Shown in pieces: positions 6,510-60,562 of a DNA stretch of 64,000 nucleotides; position 1 is the first letter of the stretch, and every line of letters starts with the position of its first letter. This DNA is from Glaciihabitans sp. Lineage in GTDB: Bacteria; Actinomycetota; Actinomycetes; Actinomycetales; Microbacteriaceae. The notes beneath the pieces were generated by a model. It did no database searches, was not told the DNA's origin, and was given only the letters and a program-made list of their open reading frames with translations. A program made the position numbers and the translations under genes. The stretch is from contig JAODBD010000010.1 in assembly GCA_025463785.1 (NCBI GenBank), forward strand, positions 62,001 to 126,000, written 5' to 3'.

Positions 6510-8132
6510 GTGCGTTGGGTGGACAATGATCCCGGCGCCTGGTTCCTGAGTCGCGCGGAGCGGGGAAATCTGGCCACGGATGTGCACGCGGGTGGCGCCG
6601 GGTTGCCGTCCTGGTCGGAGGGCAACCTCGTGCGACCCCTGATTCATGGAGCGAGTTACTTCGCCCGCCTGCATGAGGAGCTTTCGGCTCTGCAGGCCGG
6701 GGACCGTGTGTGGTTCACCGACTGGCGTGGCGATGCCGACGAGCGGCTGCTGGCGGAGGGCCCGTCGATCGGCGATCTGCTCGCGGGGTTGGCCCGTGCA
6801 GGAGTAGAGGTGCGGGGCCTTGTCTGGAGATCCCACGGGGAGCGCGTGTCGTCCCCGATCAGCGGCCGATCCAACGAGCTTCTGGGCCGCCAGATCAACG
6901 ACGCCGGCGGAGAGGTGCTGCTGGATCAGCGAGTACGCCTTTTCGGCTCCCATCACCAGAAATTCTTCGTCATCCGGCATCGTGACGACCCGTCGAGGGA
7001 CGTGGCGTTCGTTGGCGGGCTCGACCTCAGCCACAGCCGTCGAGATGACGCCGACCACCTGGGAGACCCACAATCGCTGAGCATGGATTCCCGGTACGGC
7101 AAACGACCTCCGTGGCACGATGCCGCCCTCGAACTACGTGGCCCCGTGGTGGCAGACCTGCTGGCAGTTTTCGCCGAACGGTGGGACGACCCGCATCCGC
7201 TCGACCGACGAACTCCGTATCGGATGCTGCTGCAACGTCTCGCCCACATGCCCCGACACCCCAAGCCGCTTCCAGACAGTGCACCTCCGCCACCATCGGC
7301 GGGTCCTCACGCCGTACAGCTGCTGCGTACTTACGGCGTGAAACGCCCGCCGTTCCCGTTCGCACCTGCGGGGGAGCGCAGCGTTGCCCGTGCTTACGGG
7401 AAAGCCTTCGCCCGAGCCCGTTCGCTGATCTACATCGAGGACCAGTACCTGTGGTCGACAGAGGTCGCGGCCGCTCTCGCCAAGGCCCTCGAACGGAACC
7501 CAGAATTGAACGTGATCGCGGTCGTGCCCCGCTACCCCGACTCCGACGGGCCGCTCGCTGGGCCGCCCAGCCGGATCGGTCAACTGCGTGCCATCAGCAT
7601 GTTGCGCCGGGTCGCGCCGGACCGGTTCGGCGTGTTCGACCTGGAGAACAGCACCGGAACTCCGATCTACGTCCACGCCAAGATCTGCATCATCGACGAC
7701 ATCTGGATGACCTGCGGTTCAGACAACTTCAACCGTCGATCCTGGACCACCGATAGCGAACTCACCTGCGCAGTTCTCGACATGACCGCCGACAACCGGG
7801 AACCAGCCGACGCAGAGACCGGCTACGACCCTTCCCGACGGCTGGCCCGCGACTTCCGCCTGCAACTTTGGGCCGAACACCTGGGCCTGGACCAGAACGA
7901 TCCCCAACTCCACGATCCGGCGGCTGGGCTAAAACTTTGGAACACGGCCGCCGACGCCCTCGACAGCTGGCACGAAACTGGCGGCCGCGCGCCTCGTCCT
8001 GCCGGACGCCTGCGCCACCATACTCCCCAACCCGTCCCGCCCATCCAACGACTCTGGGCGGTCCCGGTCAACCGCCTCGTCGTGGATCCGGACGGCCGCC
8101 CCCGCAGGCTGAGAGGTACGTCGCAGTTTTAG
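6510..8132 (+). CDS. Phospholipase D family protein (two HKD motifs)
   Basis: About 540 residues from GTG 6510, with TAGGAG upstream. Two HKD active sites are visible: HHQKFFVIRHRD with H149/K151, followed by VAFVGGLDLSHSR; and VHAKICIIDD with H389/K391, followed by CGSDNFNRRSW. Such proteins form a covalent phosphohistidine intermediate and hydrolyse or transfer phosphodiesters; two copies in one chain is the usual PLD or cardiolipin-synthase layout. I see no signal peptide, and the cluster of membrane helices expected for bacterial cardiolipin synthase is absent, so a soluble or peripheral enzyme is likely. The phosphoesterase gene follows 125 bp downstream on the same strand, suggesting a shared role in phospholipid turnover. 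Confidence 0.85.
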   Translation: MRWVDNDPGAWFLSRAERGNLATDVHAGGAGLPSWSEGNLVRPLIHGASYFARLHEELSALQAGDRVWFTDWRGDADERLLAEGPSIGDLLAGLARAGVEVRGLVWRSHGERVSSPISGRSNELLGRQINDAGGEVLLDQRVRLFGSHHQKFFVIRHRDDPSRDVAFVGGLDLSHSRRDDADHLGDPQSLSMDSRYGKRPPWHDAALELRGPVVADLLAVFAERWDDPHPLDRRTPYRMLLQRLAHMPRHPKPLPDSAPPPPSAGPHAVQLLRTYGVKRPPFPFAPAGERSVARAYGKAFARARSLIYIEDQYLWSTEVAAALAKALERNPELNVIAVVPRYPDSDGPLAGPPSRIGQLRAISMLRRVAPDRFGVFDLENSTGTPIYVHAKICIIDDIWMTCGSDNFNRRSWTTDSELTCAVLDMTADNREPADAETGYDPSRRLARDFRLQLWAEHLGLDQNDPQLHDPAAGLKLWNTAADALDSWHETGGRAPRPAGRLRHHTPQPVPPIQRLWAVPVNRLVVDPDGRPRRLRGTSQF

Positions 8133-8257
8133 GCCAACGATTGCGGGCAGCGTGCGCAAGTTGGATGTTCACCGTTTATCTCTAGACCTGCCGTCGAGAG
8201 CGTGCTTCGCTGGAAGTGAGACGCATTGTGTGAACGTTGTCGGGAGGAAGGCTTCGC

Positions 8258-9448
8258 ATGGTTGCCGCATCGCCAGAGCATCGGGTGGTTGTTTTCGTCC
8301 AGGAGAACAAGACCACTGACTTTTACTTCCCAACCCTTTCCGCGTGGGGAGCGGTCGTAGCCAACCACGGGAACCTGTTGGCAGCGCCGCCGAATTTCGA
8401 TCAACCTCACGACCGCAACGCATGGGTGCACTATTCGATGGGTGACTACCCGGCGCTCGCAGTTCAAGTCGACAATGACACGGTCATCCCGTTCTACAGC
8501 TGGTTGGCCAAGCAGTTCGTCTTCTCCGACCACCACTTCGGTTCCGGATCCAACTCCACACCCGGGCACATGCTGATCATCGGTGGACAAATGCCTACGA
8601 TGAAAAACCCGCCGTTCGTCGGACCTGCCCCGGTGTGGGATCTGCCATCGATCTTCACGGCCGCGGAGGCGGGCAAGGTGTCGTGGGGAGCGTTCCCAGA
8701 CGGCTCCGGATATCCGACCAAGTTCTACACGAGCCTCACGACCGCCCCCGGTAATCTGAACGTGCATCCGCCGAAAGACTTCATACCCATGGCCAAGGCC
8801 GGTCTCCTTCCGCAGGTGTGTCTTGTGTGGAGCCCGGCTGGCTTCGATGAGCATCCGCCCGCCACCAGCAACCCCGCCTACGTCACCAACGGACAAAACC
8901 TGGTCTGGGATCGGGTGCAGGCCGTGATCGATGGCGGCGGATGGGGGAACACCACATTCATCCTGACCTGGGATGACTGGGGAGGCTATGCCGATTCCGT
9001 TCCCACCCCTGGCATTGAGTTGGTCCCGGATGCTCTTCACCCGGAGGGATTTCAGGCCATCGGTGGCTCCCGCATCCCGTTGGTCATGTTCGGTGGCCAC
9101 GTCATCCAGCAGATTGATTCGGAATGGCACTCCCACGCCAGCGTTCCGAAGACGGTTATCGACCTTCTTGGGTTGCCTCCGATGGGAGTCCCGCGAGTGG
9201 ACGGCGCCCCCTCACTTGCCCACCTGGTCGACCTGAATTCAGCGGTCCGCCCGGAGCCGCCCGCCCCGGGGACAACGTTCGCTCAGCCGGTTCCGCCGTC
9301 TCCGGCCCCCACCCCGGTCAGTCCGAAACCCTGGCCGGGTGCGCTGGACCATCCCATGCCGGCCCTGGTAACGCTCGACGGTTCGACGATCCCAGCACCC
9401 ACCGACGGCCTGGTCAGGCCGAACCCGCCCAGGTCGCCCAAGCCGTAG
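8258..9448 (+). CDS. Phospholipase C / acid phosphatase-type phosphoesterase
   Basis: The ATG at 8258 has a strong GGGAGGAAGG eight bases upstream, so I prefer it to the GTG at 8237. About 396 residues. The N-terminus VVVFVQENKTTDFYF matches the metal-binding ENxTFD region of the phosphoesterase family (non-haemolytic phospholipase C, AcpA), though with Asp-Phe shifted. DHHFGSGSNSTPGHML carries the usual His/Ser region, and FILTWDDWGGYAD resembles the WDDxGG(F/W) metal-binding motif. The last ~75 residues are Pro-rich and probably disordered. No Sec or Tat signal is seen, unusual for this normally secreted family. It follows the phospholipase D gene and may work on the same lipids. Confidence 0.8.
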   Translation: MVAASPEHRVVVFVQENKTTDFYFPTLSAWGAVVANHGNLLAAPPNFDQPHDRNAWVHYSMGDYPALAVQVDNDTVIPFYSWLAKQFVFSDHHFGSGSNSTPGHMLIIGGQMPTMKNPPFVGPAPVWDLPSIFTAAEAGKVSWGAFPDGSGYPTKFYTSLTTAPGNLNVHPPKDFIPMAKAGLLPQVCLVWSPAGFDEHPPATSNPAYVTNGQNLVWDRVQAVIDGGGWGNTTFILTWDDWGGYADSVPTPGIELVPDALHPEGFQAIGGSRIPLVMFGGHVIQQIDSEWHSHASVPKTVIDLLGLPPMGVPRVDGAPSLAHLVDLNSAVRPEPPAPGTTFAQPVPPSPAPTPVSPKPWPGALDHPMPALVTLDGSTIPAPTDGLVRPNPPRSPKP

Positions 9449-19819: not shown

Positions 19820-21367
19820 ATGACCGATGCAAGTTCCAGCGTCGACGCGACAAATGCACCCCACCGCCTCAAAGGCGGGATCCTCACCGTTCCGAACGCA
19901 ATCGCACTGTCCGCCGCCGCGATGGCGCCAGTTCTCGCCATCGTTCTCAATGCCCCAGCCGCCGCCAACGCAGCAGGTGCGGCAATGCCCCTGTCCTTTT
20001 TGATTGCTTTCATCGCCTGCGCGCTCGTAGGAAACACGGTTGTACAGTTCGCGCGGAAACTGCCATCTGCAGGCTCGTTCTACACCTTCAACTCCAAGGG
20101 CCTTGGCCCGCTTGCGGGATTCTTCACCGGGTGGCTCTTCTGGATCGGGTACGCAATTCTCGCGCCCGGACTTATGACAGCATTTGGCGCATTCGTCCAC
20201 GATTACGTGCTGTCGACATTCAAAGCCGACGTGCCATGGTGGATTTTCAGCCTGGGTGCCATGGCGATCGTGTTCGGACTCTCCGTTCGGAGCATCAAGG
20301 CGTCGGTCAATGTCGACCTGACCCTCCTCGTCATCGAGGTCATTGTCTTCCTCATCCTCGGCATAGTCGCGATCTCGACCGCAGGCAGTGGGAACACTCC
20401 CAGCGTCTTCTACATCACGTCCTCGCCGACCGGCTTTTCGGGGGTTGGCCTCGGCGTGGTGTTCGGCATTCTGTCCTTCATCGGATTTGACGCCGCCGCG
20501 ACGCTGGGGGAGGAGACTCGAAACCCGAAGCGCAGCATCCCCATCGCGGTGATTGGCGCCCTCTCTGCTGTAGGCGTTTTCTACGTTCTTCTCATGTACG
20601 CGCTGACCGCGGGCTACAAACTCAACGACAAGGCCCACATGGCCGCGTTCCTCAAGGACGCAAATCCGTTCGTCACCCTCGCCCAGCACGTTACGCCGTG
20701 GCTCGTGCAGCCGATCGAAATCGCGGCAATCGCGGGCATCTTCAGTTGTTTTCTCGCCATTCACAACACGACCGTGCGGGTCATGTTCTCGATGGGACGC
20801 GATGAGGTTCTTCCGAAGTCGATGGGCCGCCTCCACGCGCGCTGGTTCTCTCCGCTGCGCGCCATCATCGTTCAGACCATCTTCACGCTGGTCGTCGGAC
20901 TGGGTATTGGCGCCTGGGATGGGCCGGGGGCGACGGGAGCCTACGCCTTTACGGGAACCATCGGCACGGTCGCAATCGTGATCGTCTACATCATGGCCAA
21001 TATCGCCCTCATCAGATACTTCTGGCGCTCGAAGGAGCGCAGAATCCTGACGCACGTGATCGTGCCGGTGCTTGGCGTGATCGCCCTCGCCTACCCGCTG
21101 TATGCCGTCGGGAACTTCAGCCAGCCGTACCCGTTCAACCTCGTGCCCTTCGTTGTCATCGCCTGGGTCGCGGCCGGGGTCGGCCTTTACCTGTACTACC
21201 GCGTGAAGTCGCCTCAGAAGATTGCTGCTGTCGGTGCATTTGTGACCGAAGAAGACCTACCTTCGAGCGAGCAGCCTTCGGCACTCCTGTCCGCTCGCGC
21301 GGCCTCTGTCCAGCATCCGACGATCGCAGAAGAGTTCGCGGAGCACCCGGAGATCGCGAAGCGCTGA
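19820..21367 (+). CDS. APC-superfamily amino acid/polyamine permease
   Basis: 515 residues from ATG 19820, with AAGGAG upstream. About twelve hydrophobic segments. The first helix region LTVPNAIALSAAAMAPVLAIV and LPSAGSFYTFNSKGLGPLAGFFTGW match the APC family helices 1-2 with the Gly-rich substrate-binding break; GFDAAATLGEETRNPKRSIP is the usual loop after helix 6. The Glu-Pro/Thr-rich C-terminal tail is cytoplasmic. It likely imports the amine or amino acid processed by the following enzymes. Its gene starts the second transcription unit of the block: the next gene begins 3 nt after its stop. Confidence 0.9.
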   Translation: MTDASSSVDATNAPHRLKGGILTVPNAIALSAAAMAPVLAIVLNAPAAANAAGAAMPLSFLIAFIACALVGNTVVQFARKLPSAGSFYTFNSKGLGPLAGFFTGWLFWIGYAILAPGLMTAFGAFVHDYVLSTFKADVPWWIFSLGAMAIVFGLSVRSIKASVNVDLTLLVIEVIVFLILGIVAISTAGSGNTPSVFYITSSPTGFSGVGLGVVFGILSFIGFDAAATLGEETRNPKRSIPIAVIGALSAVGVFYVLLMYALTAGYKLNDKAHMAAFLKDANPFVTLAQHVTPWLVQPIEIAAIAGIFSCFLAIHNTTVRVMFSMGRDEVLPKSMGRLHARWFSPLRAIIVQTIFTLVVGLGIGAWDGPGATGAYAFTGTIGTVAIVIVYIMANIALIRYFWRSKERRILTHVIVPVLGVIALAYPLYAVGNFSQPYPFNLVPFVVIAWVAAGVGLYLYYRVKSPQKIAAVGAFVTEEDLPSSEQPSALLSARAASVQHPTIAEEFAEHPEIAKR

Positions 21368-21369
21368 CC

Positions 21370-22068
21370 GTGATTGCCGTTGACGGAAAGTACGTCCTCA
21401 CTGAGCTCGTCGAGCTCGTCGACCCCGCGCATACCGCGCTCGTCCTGGTCGACATGCAACGCGACTTCATCGAGCCCGACGGACTCTTTGGTCAACTAGG
21501 GATCAATCTGTCGATGTATCAGGAGACACGACCGCGTCTGGCCGCACTTCTGGCGGACGCACGCCGCAACGGCATCCTGGTGATTCACATTCAAAACACG
21601 GCCCTTCCGGACCGCATGAGCGATTCGCCGGCACAGATCCGTTTCAATCTCAGGATGCACGATGGGGCCAGGCACGGTGGACCGCCACTTCGGTACACCG
21701 TGCCCGGTTCACCCGGTCACGAGTTTGTCGACGGGTTTGCGCCTCTGCCGGGCGAACTCGTCGTGCAAAAGTATCGCTCCAGCGCGTTTTGGGGCACGAA
21801 TCTGGAGCTGCTGCTGCGGAGCAATGCAATCCAGACGGTGGTCGTCGGTGGCTGTACGACAGAGGGATGCGTGGAATCAACCGCGCGGGACGCAATGTTC
21901 AACGATCACTACGTGGTCGTTGCATCGGATTGCGTCGGCAGCGACGACCGGGCGCAACACGATGCTTCGATGCTTCTGATGAAGCACCGATTCGACATGG
22001 CGAGCGCCGATGAGCTTGCCGAGGCCTGGCGCGAGGGCGCGGGGCACGAGGGAGAGGAATTCGCATGA
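21370..22068 (+). CDS. Isochorismatase-family cysteine hydrolase
   Basis: 232 residues from GTG 21370. The catalytic triad of the family is seen: Asp in TALVLVDMQRDFIEPDG, Lys in GELVVQKYRSSAFWGTNLE, and Cys in VVVGGCTTEGCVESTARDA. Members hydrolyse C-N bonds such as N-carbamoylsarcosine, ureidoacrylate, nicotinamide or biuret; the Lys-Tyr-Arg-Ser and CTTEGCV form is nearest the carbamoyl/ureido amidases. Length is usual. It overlaps the downstream SDR gene by 4 nt, so it is co-translated, and probably releases ammonia or carbamate from a pathway intermediate. Confidence 0.85.
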   Translation: MIAVDGKYVLTELVELVDPAHTALVLVDMQRDFIEPDGLFGQLGINLSMYQETRPRLAALLADARRNGILVIHIQNTALPDRMSDSPAQIRFNLRMHDGARHGGPPLRYTVPGSPGHEFVDGFAPLPGELVVQKYRSSAFWGTNLELLLRSNAIQTVVVGGCTTEGCVESTARDAMFNDHYVVVASDCVGSDDRAQHDASMLLMKHRFDMASADELAEAWREGAGHEGEEFA

Positions 22069-56697: not shown

Positions 56698-58470
56698 ATG
56701 AAGAAGAGCAGAAGAGCGGGGGGCCGCCTGACGCTCACGATGCTCGGCATCTTCGCGGTCGTTGGACTGTTTGCGGGAAGACTCGTTGACCTGCAAATTG
56801 TGCAGGCACCTAAGCTGACCGCGGCAGCATCCGCAAGTCGTGAGGCGAAGGTCATCACCTACGGCACGCGGGGTTCGATTGTCGATTCGAACGGCGTGGT
56901 ACTCGCAGACAGCGTTGACCGGTTCAACATCACGGTTTCGCCGAAGAATTTCCCGATCGATGGCTACGACACCAAGCCGAATGATGATTCGACCCGGGTG
57001 ACCGCAGCCGAGGTCCTCACCAAGGTCAGCCAGCTGACCGGCCAAAGTGTTGCGAACCTGACGACAGTTATCACGAAGAACCCGAAGTCCGACTTCGCGT
57101 ACCTCGCCAAGGGCGTCACGCTCACGGTCTTCAATGAGGTGATGAAGCTCAAGGTGCCTGGCATATATTCGCAGCCCGATCCGGCGCGCAGCTACCCGAA
57201 TGGTGCGACGGCGGGCAACCTCGTCGGCTTCGTCGGCACCGATGGGCCACAGGCCGGCATCGAGTTGGCGTATAACAAGTGTCTCGCCAGCACGAACGGT
57301 ACTTCCACCTACGAAAAGGCCCGCGACGGCACGCGCATCCCCGGCAGCACAATCAAGCAGACCGACCCGGTCAATGGCGGCACCGTGAAGCTCACCATCG
57401 ACCGCGACCTGCAGTACTCGGTGCAGCAGGCGATACATTCGCAACGCGTTGCCCTCGGCGCGCCCTGGGCCACGGCTGTTGTCGAGAGAGTGTCCGATGG
57501 TCACCTGATGGCGGTCGCCGATGACCCGACAGTCGACCCTAACAATCTCAACGCGGCGAAACGAACGGCACTTGGCTCTCTGGCGTTCAGCACACCCTAC
57601 GAGCCGGGGTCCACATTCAAAGCGATGAGCGCTGCGGCGCTGATCGACTCGGGTGCCATCACTCCCAAGACGCAGATCACGGTGCCCCCGGTCTACACGC
57701 ACGGTCTGCCCAAGGGCGCCTACATCAAGGACTCCTTTTATCACGGCACGCTGCGCTACACGACCGCCGGAGTACTGGAAAACTCGTCCAACATCGGAAT
57801 CTCAATCCTGTCGCAGAGCTTGAACCCGCAGGCTCGGCACGACTACATGGCGAAATTTGGTGTCGGTCAGAAGACCGCAGTGGACTTCGGGTCCCAACAG
57901 TCGTCGGGATATCTTGCCCCGGCGAGTAAGTGGGACGCGATTACGACGCGCGCCGTTGAGTTCGGGCAGGGCGTCAGTGCCACCTCGGTGCAGGTTGCGC
58001 AGATATTCGAAACGATCGCCAACCACGGCGTTCGCGAGCCGTCGACCCTGGTCGAAAGTTGCACCAAGTCGAACGGCGTCGTCGTCGATACGCCGACAGC
58101 CAAGCCGGTTCGAGTGGTCAGTGCCAAGGCTGCAGACGAGGTGCGGGGGATACTCGAGACCGTCGTCACGGGCGGCCCCATCGGCCCGTTGCTGCAGATT
58201 CCCGGCTATCGCATCGCGGCCAAGACCGGAACCGCGCAGGTGGCCTCGTCCAATGGTGCCGGCTACACGAACAAATACATCATCTCCGTTGCAGGCATGG
58301 CGCCGGCAGAGGATCCGCAATACGTCGTCGTGGTCACGTTTGGGCCTACTACGCTGGGGACGTCGGCTGGTGCAGCACCGGCATTCAAGAACGTCATGAC
58401 CCAGGTGCTCAAGAAGTACCGGATCGAACCGTCAACTAAGCCGGCACCATTCGTGCAGACGACGTGGTAA
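56698..58470 (+). CDS. ftsI: Penicillin-binding protein 2/3, division transpeptidase FtsI
   Basis: 590 residues from ATG 56698. One N-terminal helix (LTMLGIFAVVGLFAGRLVDL) and a PBP dimerisation domain (GTRGSIVDSNGVVLADSVDR). Transpeptidase motifs: S305-TFK308 in YEPGSTFKAMSA, SSN (363-365) in LENSSNIGIS, and K509-TGT in AAKTGTAQVAS. Class B PBP that cross-links septal peptidoglycan with FtsW. C-terminal region of normal length, no PASTA. Confidence 0.95.
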   Translation: MKKSRRAGGRLTLTMLGIFAVVGLFAGRLVDLQIVQAPKLTAAASASREAKVITYGTRGSIVDSNGVVLADSVDRFNITVSPKNFPIDGYDTKPNDDSTRVTAAEVLTKVSQLTGQSVANLTTVITKNPKSDFAYLAKGVTLTVFNEVMKLKVPGIYSQPDPARSYPNGATAGNLVGFVGTDGPQAGIELAYNKCLASTNGTSTYEKARDGTRIPGSTIKQTDPVNGGTVKLTIDRDLQYSVQQAIHSQRVALGAPWATAVVERVSDGHLMAVADDPTVDPNNLNAAKRTALGSLAFSTPYEPGSTFKAMSAAALIDSGAITPKTQITVPPVYTHGLPKGAYIKDSFYHGTLRYTTAGVLENSSNIGISILSQSLNPQARHDYMAKFGVGQKTAVDFGSQQSSGYLAPASKWDAITTRAVEFGQGVSATSVQVAQIFETIANHGVREPSTLVESCTKSNGVVVDTPTAKPVRVVSAKAADEVRGILETVVTGGPIGPLLQIPGYRIAAKTGTAQVASSNGAGYTNKYIISVAGMAPAEDPQYVVVVTFGPTTLGTSAGAAPAFKNVMTQVLKKYRIEPSTKPAPFVQTTW

Positions 58471-58499
58471 CTGGGCGGCTTCGTCAGAAAGAGGATTGC

Positions 58500-60044
58500 G
58501 TGACCGATCGGATACCCCCGGTCCTTCGCCCGGAGCATCCGCAGGCCCGTTCCCTTGCGGGGCTTGTCGAGGAATTCGGCCTAGACGCGCGCGGCTCGCT
58601 GGATGGCGTCGAAATTACGGGAGTCACCCTCAGCACGGGGGATCTGCACCCAGGCGACCTTTACGTCGGAATTCGTGGTCAGCACAGCCACGGCGCGAGC
58701 TACTCGACTGTGGCGCGCGATGGCGGAGCGGTGGCTGTACTGACGGATGCCGACGGCGCCAGCCTCGCAGCAGACTCCGGCCTGCCCGTCGTCGTCGTCG
58801 CATCCCCGAGAGAAGCCCTGGGTGAGATTTCCGCGTGGGTCTACCGCAGCGCCGAGCATCCGCCGCTCCTGTTTGGGACTACGGGCACCAACGGCAAGAC
58901 CTCGACCTCGTACCTGCTGGAGGGCATCCTGAAGCAGCTGGGGCTCGTCTCCGGCCTGAGCTCAACCTCTGAACGACACATCGGCGACCTCACCGTCGTC
59001 TCTCGGCTGACGACCCCCGAGGCCAGCGAGATGCATGCGCTGCTGGCCCGCATGCGGGAAAGCAACGTGCGTGCTGTCGCGGTCGAAGTCAGTGCACAGG
59101 CTCTCACGCGCAATCGTGTTGACGGCATCATGTTTGACGTCGTGTCGTTTACCAACCTCAGTCACGACCATCTCGATGACTACGTCGACATGGAGGAATA
59201 CTTCCAGGCCAAACTCGCATTGTTCGATCCCGATCGCGCCCGGCGCGGCGTCGTTTCGCTTGACACAAGCTGGGGGCAGCGGATCGTCAACGGTTCCCGG
59301 ATCCCGGTGACAACTATTTCGGCAACACCGGGTGTACCCGCCGAGTGGACGGTTGAGATTCTCGAAGAACGAGCCGAATATTCGGAGTTTCGACTTGTGG
59401 GGCCCGAAGGACGGTCGCTCACAACGCGAGTACCGATCATTGGCTGGCACATGGCGGCCGACGCCGGCCTCGCCATCGTCATGTTGGTTGAGGCCGGGTT
59501 CGAGCTTGAGGCAATCGGGCACGCGCTAGAGGCCGATGGCGGCATCGTCGCCTACCTGCCCGGGCGCACCGAGCGGGTCTCAGGTGATCGCGGGCCGTCG
59601 GTCTATGTCGACTTCGGGCACAGTCCAGACGCCTTCCTGAACACGCTCGCCGCTGTCCGTAAGTTCACTCCCGGCCGCACCATCATGCTGTTCGGCGCTG
59701 ACGGCGACCGCGACGCCTCGAAGAGGCTCGAGATGGGACGGGTTGCGGCCGATGGGTCCGACATCCTCGTCGTCACCGATCATCACCCGCGGTTTGAGAA
59801 TCCCGCCGCGATACGCGCGACATTACTCGAGGGTGCGGCGCTTGCCGAGCACCAGCCCGAAATCTATGAGGTGAGCCCGCCCGAGAAGGCGATTCGTGTG
59901 GCGGTGGCATTGGCGAAGGAGGGTGACTCGATCCTCTGGGCGGGCCCCGGTCATCAGGACTACCGCGATATCGAGGGTGTCCGCACGCCGTATTCGGCTC
60001 GGGATGAAGCGCGCGCGGCACTGCGGGAAGCCGGCTGGGTGTGA
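58500..60044 (+). CDS. murE: UDP-MurNAc-dipeptide ligase MurE with unusual DHHPR motif
   Basis: 514 residues from GTG 58500 (AGAGGA upstream). ATP loop FGTTGTNGKTSTSYLLEGIL; carbamylated-Lys region and SAQALTRNRVDG; NLSHDHLDDY; C-terminal domain DFGHSPDAFLNTLAAVRKFT. The residue set selecting the third amino acid reads TDHHPRFENPAAIR (D427-H-H-P-R431). meso-diaminopimelate enzymes have DNPR, and lysine enzymes D(D/N)P(N/A). The family here, with B-type peptidoglycan, adds other residues (ornithine, diaminobutyrate or lysine) there, so the second His may define that. The preceding and following genes overlap or adjoin. Confidence 0.93.
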   Translation: MTDRIPPVLRPEHPQARSLAGLVEEFGLDARGSLDGVEITGVTLSTGDLHPGDLYVGIRGQHSHGASYSTVARDGGAVAVLTDADGASLAADSGLPVVVVASPREALGEISAWVYRSAEHPPLLFGTTGTNGKTSTSYLLEGILKQLGLVSGLSSTSERHIGDLTVVSRLTTPEASEMHALLARMRESNVRAVAVEVSAQALTRNRVDGIMFDVVSFTNLSHDHLDDYVDMEEYFQAKLALFDPDRARRGVVSLDTSWGQRIVNGSRIPVTTISATPGVPAEWTVEILEERAEYSEFRLVGPEGRSLTTRVPIIGWHMAADAGLAIVMLVEAGFELEAIGHALEADGGIVAYLPGRTERVSGDRGPSVYVDFGHSPDAFLNTLAAVRKFTPGRTIMLFGADGDRDASKRLEMGRVAADGSDILVVTDHHPRFENPAAIRATLLEGAALAEHQPEIYEVSPPEKAIRVAVALAKEGDSILWAGPGHQDYRDIEGVRTPYSARDEARAALREAGWV

Positions 60045-60562
60045 CTGCTCTGAGCGTTGCCGATCTGATTGCTGCAACCGGGGATCGTCTCGACGCTGCC
60101 GATCTGCCGACCAATCTTGACCTCTCGGGAGCACAACTGGTCGCGTCGGAATCGGGTGTGCTCCTGATTGCCGATTTCGGCATCCCGAGCCTGGAATCGA
60201 CGACTGCTGCGCTGAAGATGCTCGTGCAAGTGGCGGGGGAGTCCGGACGGTCGATCGCGGTGCTCGGCGAACTCGACGGCGAGGCCATGGAAGCGAATGA
60301 CGACCATGACGCGGTCGGTCGGCTTGTGGTTCGACTGAATGTTAGCCAGCTTGTGGTTGTCGGTCACGGCGCCCGCCACATCCACAATGCTGCGGGCCTC
60401 GAGGGTTCGTGGGATGGTGAGTCACAGTTAGTAGACACCGCGGGTGAGGCATACGATTTGCTGCGTGAACAACTGCGCGAAGGAGATGTCGTGCTGATCA
60501 AAGCCTCCCGATCCGAGGGTTTTGAGTCTCTCGTTCATCAGCTCGGCGGTGCTCTGGAATGA
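60041..60562 (+). CDS. MurF-derived protein lacking the catalytic ATP-binding domain
   Basis: 173 residues from GTG 60041, whose GTGA overlaps murE, and whose end overlaps mraY (ATGA). The start [16 protein letters not shown] matches the first residues of MurF. By residue ~45 the sequence has already reached MurF's C-terminal domain: [20 protein letters not shown] (MurF: NDxYNANPxSMxAAL), [21 protein letters not shown] and [19 protein letters not shown]. The GTNGKT loop and whole central ATPase domain (about 280 residues) are missing. The YNANP motif is also lost, so this is old, not an assembly slip. It cannot ligate D-Ala-D-Ala. Possible structural or regulatory remnant kept for operon coupling. 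Confidence 0.8.

Follow-up and report, generated by a model that had tools for sequence, protein, structure and literature searches.

The DNA analysed here, a stretch of 64 kb that we call the window, belongs to a genome of 3.3 Mb in 15 contigs (G000) and carries, in the murF position of its dcw cluster, a short gene that keeps the C-terminal domain of MurF (Table 1). As a first-pass annotation of the sequence had pointed out, both ends of this gene overlap its neighbours: the GTG start codon shares bases with the TGA of murE (GTGA), and its own TGA shares bases with the ATG of mraY (ATGA). The gap from the murE stop to the mraY start measures 514 bp, not 518 bp as given there.

Table 1. Features of the murE-mraY interval, in window coordinates.
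Feature	Position	Strand	Basis or remark
murE, 526 aa as called	58464..60044	+	GTGA overlap with murF remnant
murF remnant, 173-aa C-terminal-domain protein, intact frame	60041..60562	+	GTG start; ORF, Pfam, TIGR01143, alignment
N-terminal 31-residue segment of remnant	60041..60133	+	sequence; first ~17 residues MurF-like by eye
Mur_ligase_C (PF02875), remnant residues 32-157	60134..60511	+	Pfam
Decayed DxYNAxP equivalent, 11 residues replacing INDAYNASPDS	60167..60199	+	alignment
EGSWDGES block of remnant	60401..60424	+	E-G-S-W-x-G-E invariant in 42/42 remnants, variable wobble bases
TACGAT, -10-like hexamer, candidate internal mraY promoter	60452..60457	+	~100 bp before mraY
mraY, 378 aa	60559..61695	+	ATGA overlap with murF remnant

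In a Pfam scan Mur_ligase_C was the sole domain of the remnant (E 6.6e-10), and neither Mur_ligase_M (the ATP-binding middle domain with the P-loop) nor the N-terminal Mur_ligase domain was found, which bears out the description of a protein that ends in the MurF C-terminal domain and is devoid of the ATP-binding one. The N-terminus, described as MurF-like, resembles that of MurF by eye over its first ~17 residues, but the alignment programs did not align these residues with the MurF N-terminus. The NCBIfam murF model TIGR01143 matched the remnant at model positions 291-418 only, with 61 bits against a curated cut-off of 288.6. In the alignment the DxYNAxP motif (the NDxYNANP-type motif correctly listed as missing) and the ELG of GEMxELG are degenerate, and the first G of GEM is retained. 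An AlphaFold model of the remnant alone reached a mean pLDDT of 45.7 and was set aside with no conclusion drawn from it. DNPR is the usual motif of DAP-adding MurE; the MurE of the window reads DHHPR at this place, which suggests from the sequence that another diamino acid occupies position 3 of the stem peptide.

Searching the source genome with TIGR01143 returned eight matches. The best of them is a gene on contig C14 (178 bits, model positions 65-402). Inside the window the model hit the remnant, murE and murD, and immediately downstream of it there was one hit more; the last three, on other contigs, were weak and partial (27-40 bits). The prediction that the genome encodes a full MurF, or a substitute for it, at another place is thereby supported, in the form of a MurF-like ligase of 521 aa that we label MurF2, in an operon between an alpha/beta hydrolase gene and a D-Ala-D-Ala-ligase-like gene that we label Ddl2. 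In each of five cassettes examined, MurF2 comes after the hydrolase gene (e.g., positions 8077-8814 of locus L083).

MurF2 contains Mur_ligase_M and Mur_ligase_C, and no N-terminal UDP-binding Mur_ligase domain (PF01225) was found in it by Pfam; five strongly hydrophobic stretches lie before residue 160. In a model of the Marisediminicola homologue (25 sequences, pLDDT 93.1), residues 1-174 are helical and followed by the ligase domains, and the solved structures nearest to the predicted fold are those of MurF. MurF2 is thus predicted to combine a helical membrane domain, in place of the UDP-binding domain, with the ATPase and C-terminal domains. It looks catalytically competent, because the residues of the P-loop, FNN and DTYNSNP are conserved: the protein retains TGSYGKTSTK, FNN and IDDTYNSNP, the P-loop, FNN and D-x-YN-x-NP are invariant in five aligned sequences, and the F, N, N and D, T, N, N, P motif positions are invariant in 25. 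TIGR01143 is also its best match in NCBIfam, the best non-MurF model being murD with 64 bits, and a domain scan with Pfam gave no match to a DUF1727/GatD-binding C-terminal part. Judging from the replacement itself and from the adjoining Ddl2, MurF2 most likely adds D-Ala-D-Ala to the muramyl tripeptide, i.e., performs the MurF step.

The short form is not confined to this assembly. Of six genomes of the window's genus, G001-G004 have a full-length murF and two, G000 and G005, a gutted one; the shortened gene of G005 encodes 177 aa (63% identity), and 40 further genomes carry one, so that the remnant is due neither to chance nor to an assembly fault, and the assembly error named as a refuting case in the first-pass annotation is rejected. 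A MurF above the TIGR01143 cut-off was present in 93 of 99 relatives in a first sample and in 354 of 398 genomes of the family, which we take to be Microbacteriaceae because named contigs coincide with genomes of the set (Yonghaparkia with G117, Microcella pacifica with G314, Marisediminicola with G189). The membrane domain of MurF2 was found in 40 of these 398, distributed over 7 of 85 genera. All 40 have a shortened dcw murF with the C-domain kept in an open frame, in a murE-mraY gap of 418 to 1010 bp, and 39 of them have no MurF above the cut-off. For 36 of the 40, tblastn listed a match to the C-domain of MurF; in the other four (G314, G275, G311, G185) the match was too weak to list, and open frames there align over the C-domain and hold EGSW. 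Adding G034 and G048 brings the number of remnants to 42, each an open frame (143-338 aa with mechanically chosen start codons). The remnant is real, recurrent and, as described below, selected.

Several genomes require separate mention. G154 is the sole MurF2 genome of the family with a full-length MurF as well, outside the dcw cluster and next to another Ddl; remnant, MurF2 cassette and ectopic ordinary MurF thus occur together (L126, L253), which is possibly an intermediate or the result of a re-acquisition. In G048 the contig ends at Ddl2, before the place where MurF2 would be expected. G034 (L077, L078) has a dcw murF remnant of 154 aa, no MurF2 match and a full MurF beside a Ddl which we take to be VanA-like from its FRIHQE-type motif, and perhaps represents a second route to the same gutting of the dcw gene. 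In the MurF search 46 rows were weaker than 1e-84, and 39 of them carry MurF2, while 44 genomes were tallied below the cut-off; the split matches of G148 and G255 may explain the difference. In these two genomes (L131, L132) the slot is of full length and the murF frame in it long; the best TIGR01143 segment is weak, apparently because the frame contains extra residues, and both were rejected as cases of MurF loss. Four further genomes of this list with no mraY match (G124, G260, G355) or only a fragment of it (G213) were treated, by assumption, as assembly gaps.

We compared the Ddl complement of 28 chosen genomes (13 of the family without the cassette, 13 MurF2 genomes of the family, G048 and G092). 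A Ddl above the cut-off was present in all 13 genomes without the cassette (the VanA-like one in G034) and in two of the 13 with MurF2 (G000 and G154); none was found in the other 11, in G048 or in G092. The cassette therefore usually appears to stand in for Ddl and MurF alike. Most of the compared genomes, cassette-bearing or not, also list a shorter Ddl (about 320 residues). The additional high-scoring Ddl of G000 (366 bits, L252) is located on contig C14 at ~20533-21594.

In a FastTree phylogeny of MurE joined to the first 100 residues of MraY (64 genomes, including 40 of the 42 remnants), the remnants fall into eight remnant-only clades inside the family and one outside. Because several nodes are weak, we put the number of independent shortening events suggested by this tree at about six to eight; the cut points of the shortened genes also vary from genus to genus. 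A tree of MurF2, built from 30 of the family's 40 copies and from named ones, clusters the copies of g1, g113 and g38 (0.93) and gives a single family-wide group weak support (0.57).

Relatives of MurF2 are widespread in actinobacteria, with at least 558 encoded relatives, of which the best 80 were retained. Among 25 genomes with such relatives that were searched, a full MurF above the cut-off besides MurF2 occurred in three, all Nocardioides, and displacement of MurF by MurF2 is therefore not universal. The murE-mraY slot was read in 17 genomes from the MurF2 search. Two of them group with the family by their MurF2, namely Marisediminicola (identical with G189, same contig and coordinates) and a TMED98 MAG with a remnant of about 200 codons. 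Among the 15 outside it, the MurE frame terminates in a MurF C-domain in four of the Actinotalea type, with EGSW in three and EGSF in one, and Pfam found two Mur_ligase_C stretches in both of the fusions scanned. Stand-alone remnants with EGSW occur in two others, Mycobacterium sp. MYCO198283 (about 142 codons) and a Frankiales MAG (about 120 codons). In seven, murE overlaps mraY and there is no remnant in the slot; the last two, both Nocardioides, have a gap of 122-126 bp without murF, and one of these has a full MurF elsewhere. No remnant was found in the murE-mraY slot of G092 either, a genome of another family in the same order. Its absence from several MurF2 genomes and from G092 indicates that the domain is dispensable in some actinobacteria.

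What is maintained in the remnant can be seen from a comparison of the 42 remnants with 29 full-length family genes (the loci at hand, out of 354). NDAYNASPDS, the ELG of GEMxELG, and K448 with its neighbours are lost in the remnants, while G370, G387, VRL 391-393, G402, AR 405-406, E415 G S W, G420 E S, A431 Y432 and L446 are conserved in 93-100% of them. The amino acids of the E-G-S-W-x-G-E block are invariant and the wobble bases are variable (at position 416 GGT 22, GGC 11, GGA 5 and GGG 4 times), and therefore selection acts on the protein. This disfavours translational coupling alone, one of the roles proposed in the first-pass annotation, and supports its broader idea of a remnant kept on purpose, as does the recurrence in many genomes; a scaffold or a regulator, its other proposals, may apply. 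Eight of 11 full-length MurFs read in other families of the same order have EGSW too; the block thus predates the remnants. Estimates of dN/dS (simple NG86 on GC-rich codons), a check proposed together with the search of related genomes, gave low values in six of the eight remnant pairs listed with dS of 0.02-0.4 (0.06, 0.07, 0.135, 0.22, 0.27 and 0.30) and higher ones in two (0.76 and 0.84). Values up to about 1 occur in more distant pairs, for which dS is not reliable. At comparable dS, dN between remnants exceeds dN between full-length C-domains, and the remnant as a whole is therefore less constrained than the full-length C-domain.

We propose that a membrane-anchored MurF2, encoded with its own Ddl, would have taken over the MurF reaction, the addition of D-Ala-D-Ala to the tripeptide precursor, and that the dcw murF was then repeatedly cut back to its C-terminal domain. 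The retention of this inactive tail suggests a second job, and the domain would persist as a small pseudoenzyme whose task is non-catalytic, most likely the binding of proteins as a subunit of MurE or of a MurE-MraY/MurG assembly, with the invariant R/EGSWxGES/AY patch as putative contact surface. MurE is favoured as the partner because the genomes of the Actinotalea type fuse the C-domain to it. At the DNA level the remnant probably also provides a promoter for mraY and the genes after it. Taken as a whole, this reading, with catalysis moved to MurF2 and a non-catalytic C-domain retained to partner MurE or the Mur complex, appears moderately probable to us from the sequence comparisons. A variant concerns the order of the steps: by analogy with MurT (see below), MurF2 may act on a lipid-linked tripeptide and so reverse the order of MurF and MraY. 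UDP-MurNAc-tripeptide would then go to MraY, MurF2 would add D-Ala-D-Ala to lipid I or II, and the remnant would be a non-catalytic adaptor handing the tripeptide from MurE to MraY; in this complete form we regard the idea as tentative and on the unlikely side.

Could it be the DNA, rather than the protein, that is kept? The 3' end of murF would then serve as a promoter of mraY and as its overlapping start, and the protein would be a by-product that keeps translation coupled. Indeed codons 432-433 are TAC-GAT or TAC-GCT in 41 of the 42 remnants, codon 433 ends in T in 41 where codon usage predicts ~12 (z 10.4), CGT is in excess at codon 436 (21 of 42), third-base bias in the remnants is somewhat raised over codons 413-440, including those of the EGSW block (413-425), and the remnant stops overlap or abut the mraY start. 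TACGAT, found three times on the + strand of the window, fits what we take to be an actinobacterial -10 element, and in view of its sequence may be an internal promoter for mraY. Such a promoter can explain the retained 3' end, but not the amino-acid pattern with its variable wobble bases. Moreover, the C-domain keeps its full length, the frames are open in all 42 remnants, the domain is fused to MurE in the Actinotalea type, and the hexamer is absent in G189 and the codon pair present in just 17 of the 29 full-length genes, so that DNA function alone seems an unlikely explanation.

The C-domain might also act in trans as a regulatory or accessory subunit of MurF2 itself, as 40 of the 42 family remnants occur in MurF2 genomes and a 41st (G048) has Ddl2 at its contig end. 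However, MurF2 already has a C-domain of its own (Pfam; homologue model), G034 combines a remnant with a full MurF and no MurF2 match, several MurF2 genomes have no remnant, and the EGSW block is shared with ordinary full-length MurFs; we consider a subunit of MurF2 distinctly improbable. Least of all do we expect the remnant to be a half-finished pseudogene, a recent relic on its way out. The loss of the catalytic motifs and the complete loss of the gene in other MurF2 lineages would agree with this, but remnants that share only ~30-35% identity with a full MurF still have open frames and the patch, six of the eight close pairs have a dN/dS well under 1, and all 40 MurF2 genomes of the family retain the domain.

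The preferred reading, a retained non-catalytic C-domain beside a MurF2 that carries out the reaction, builds on parts of known kinds. Glycopeptide-resistance clusters have a second MurF, murF2, beside a Ddl-type ligase. They share this arrangement with the cassette described here. In G034, hydrophobic helices are absent from the N-terminus of the second MurF, whose neighbouring Ddl has a FRIHQE-like motif; MurF2 is predicted to be membrane-anchored, and Ddl2 lacks this motif (the Ddl of G044 and G014 lie outside this comparison). In the plastid RNA polymerase, PAP11 has a non-catalytic role. This MurE-like subunit (PDB 8r5o) likewise represents a Mur-ligase fold in a non-wall assembly, but it is a nearly full-length Mur ligase of another complex and lineage. 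Compared with MurF (TIGR01143; PDB 4qf5, 3zl8), the remnant is the third domain in the same dcw position and lacks the catalytic motifs along with the domains for substrate and ATP, whereas MurF2 shares the ATPase and C domains with the FNN and DTYNSNP motifs and differs in its predicted helical membrane domain instead of the UDP-binding N-domain and in its score below the curated cut-off. MurT of the lipid II amidotransferase MurT/GatD is also a Mur ligase without the UDP-binding N-domain and a detectable relative of MurF2 (E 4.5e-8), but MurF is a much closer match to MurF2 (E 3e-40), which also differs from MurT in its membrane domain and in being encoded beside a Ddl. The substrate of MurT is membrane-bound lipid II, and its authors argue that a UDP-binding domain would likely clash with the membrane (PMC6113224). 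The bifunctional MurE-MurF fusion of Bordetella (PDB 8f5d) joins MurE to MurF as well, but MurE of the Actinotalea type carries just the non-catalytic C-domain. Published MurE-MurF fusion, and contacts of MurF with MraY, MurG and MreB, speak for a Mur complex (PMC6420597), whereas a fragment-complementation assay in M. tuberculosis gave no mutual interaction among the Mur synthetases, which speaks against such a complex, and did give interactions of MurF with DdlA and of Mur synthetases with FtsW and FtsQ (PMC3605390). In the titles and abstract beginnings searched, with subscription papers mostly outside reach, we saw no description of a repeated replacement of MurF by a membrane-anchored paralogue together with a retained C-domain.

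The MurF step is considered essential for making the wall, and a target for drugs. Here it appears to have been swapped repeatedly for a membrane-tethered form without the usual substrate-binding domain, which raises the question of whether the order of precursor assembly is fixed or not. If catalysis has indeed moved to MurF2, evolution would have split it several times from a second function of the C-terminal domain, and genomes of this kind would be natural separation-of-function mutants in which the long-debated Mur enzyme complex becomes directly testable.
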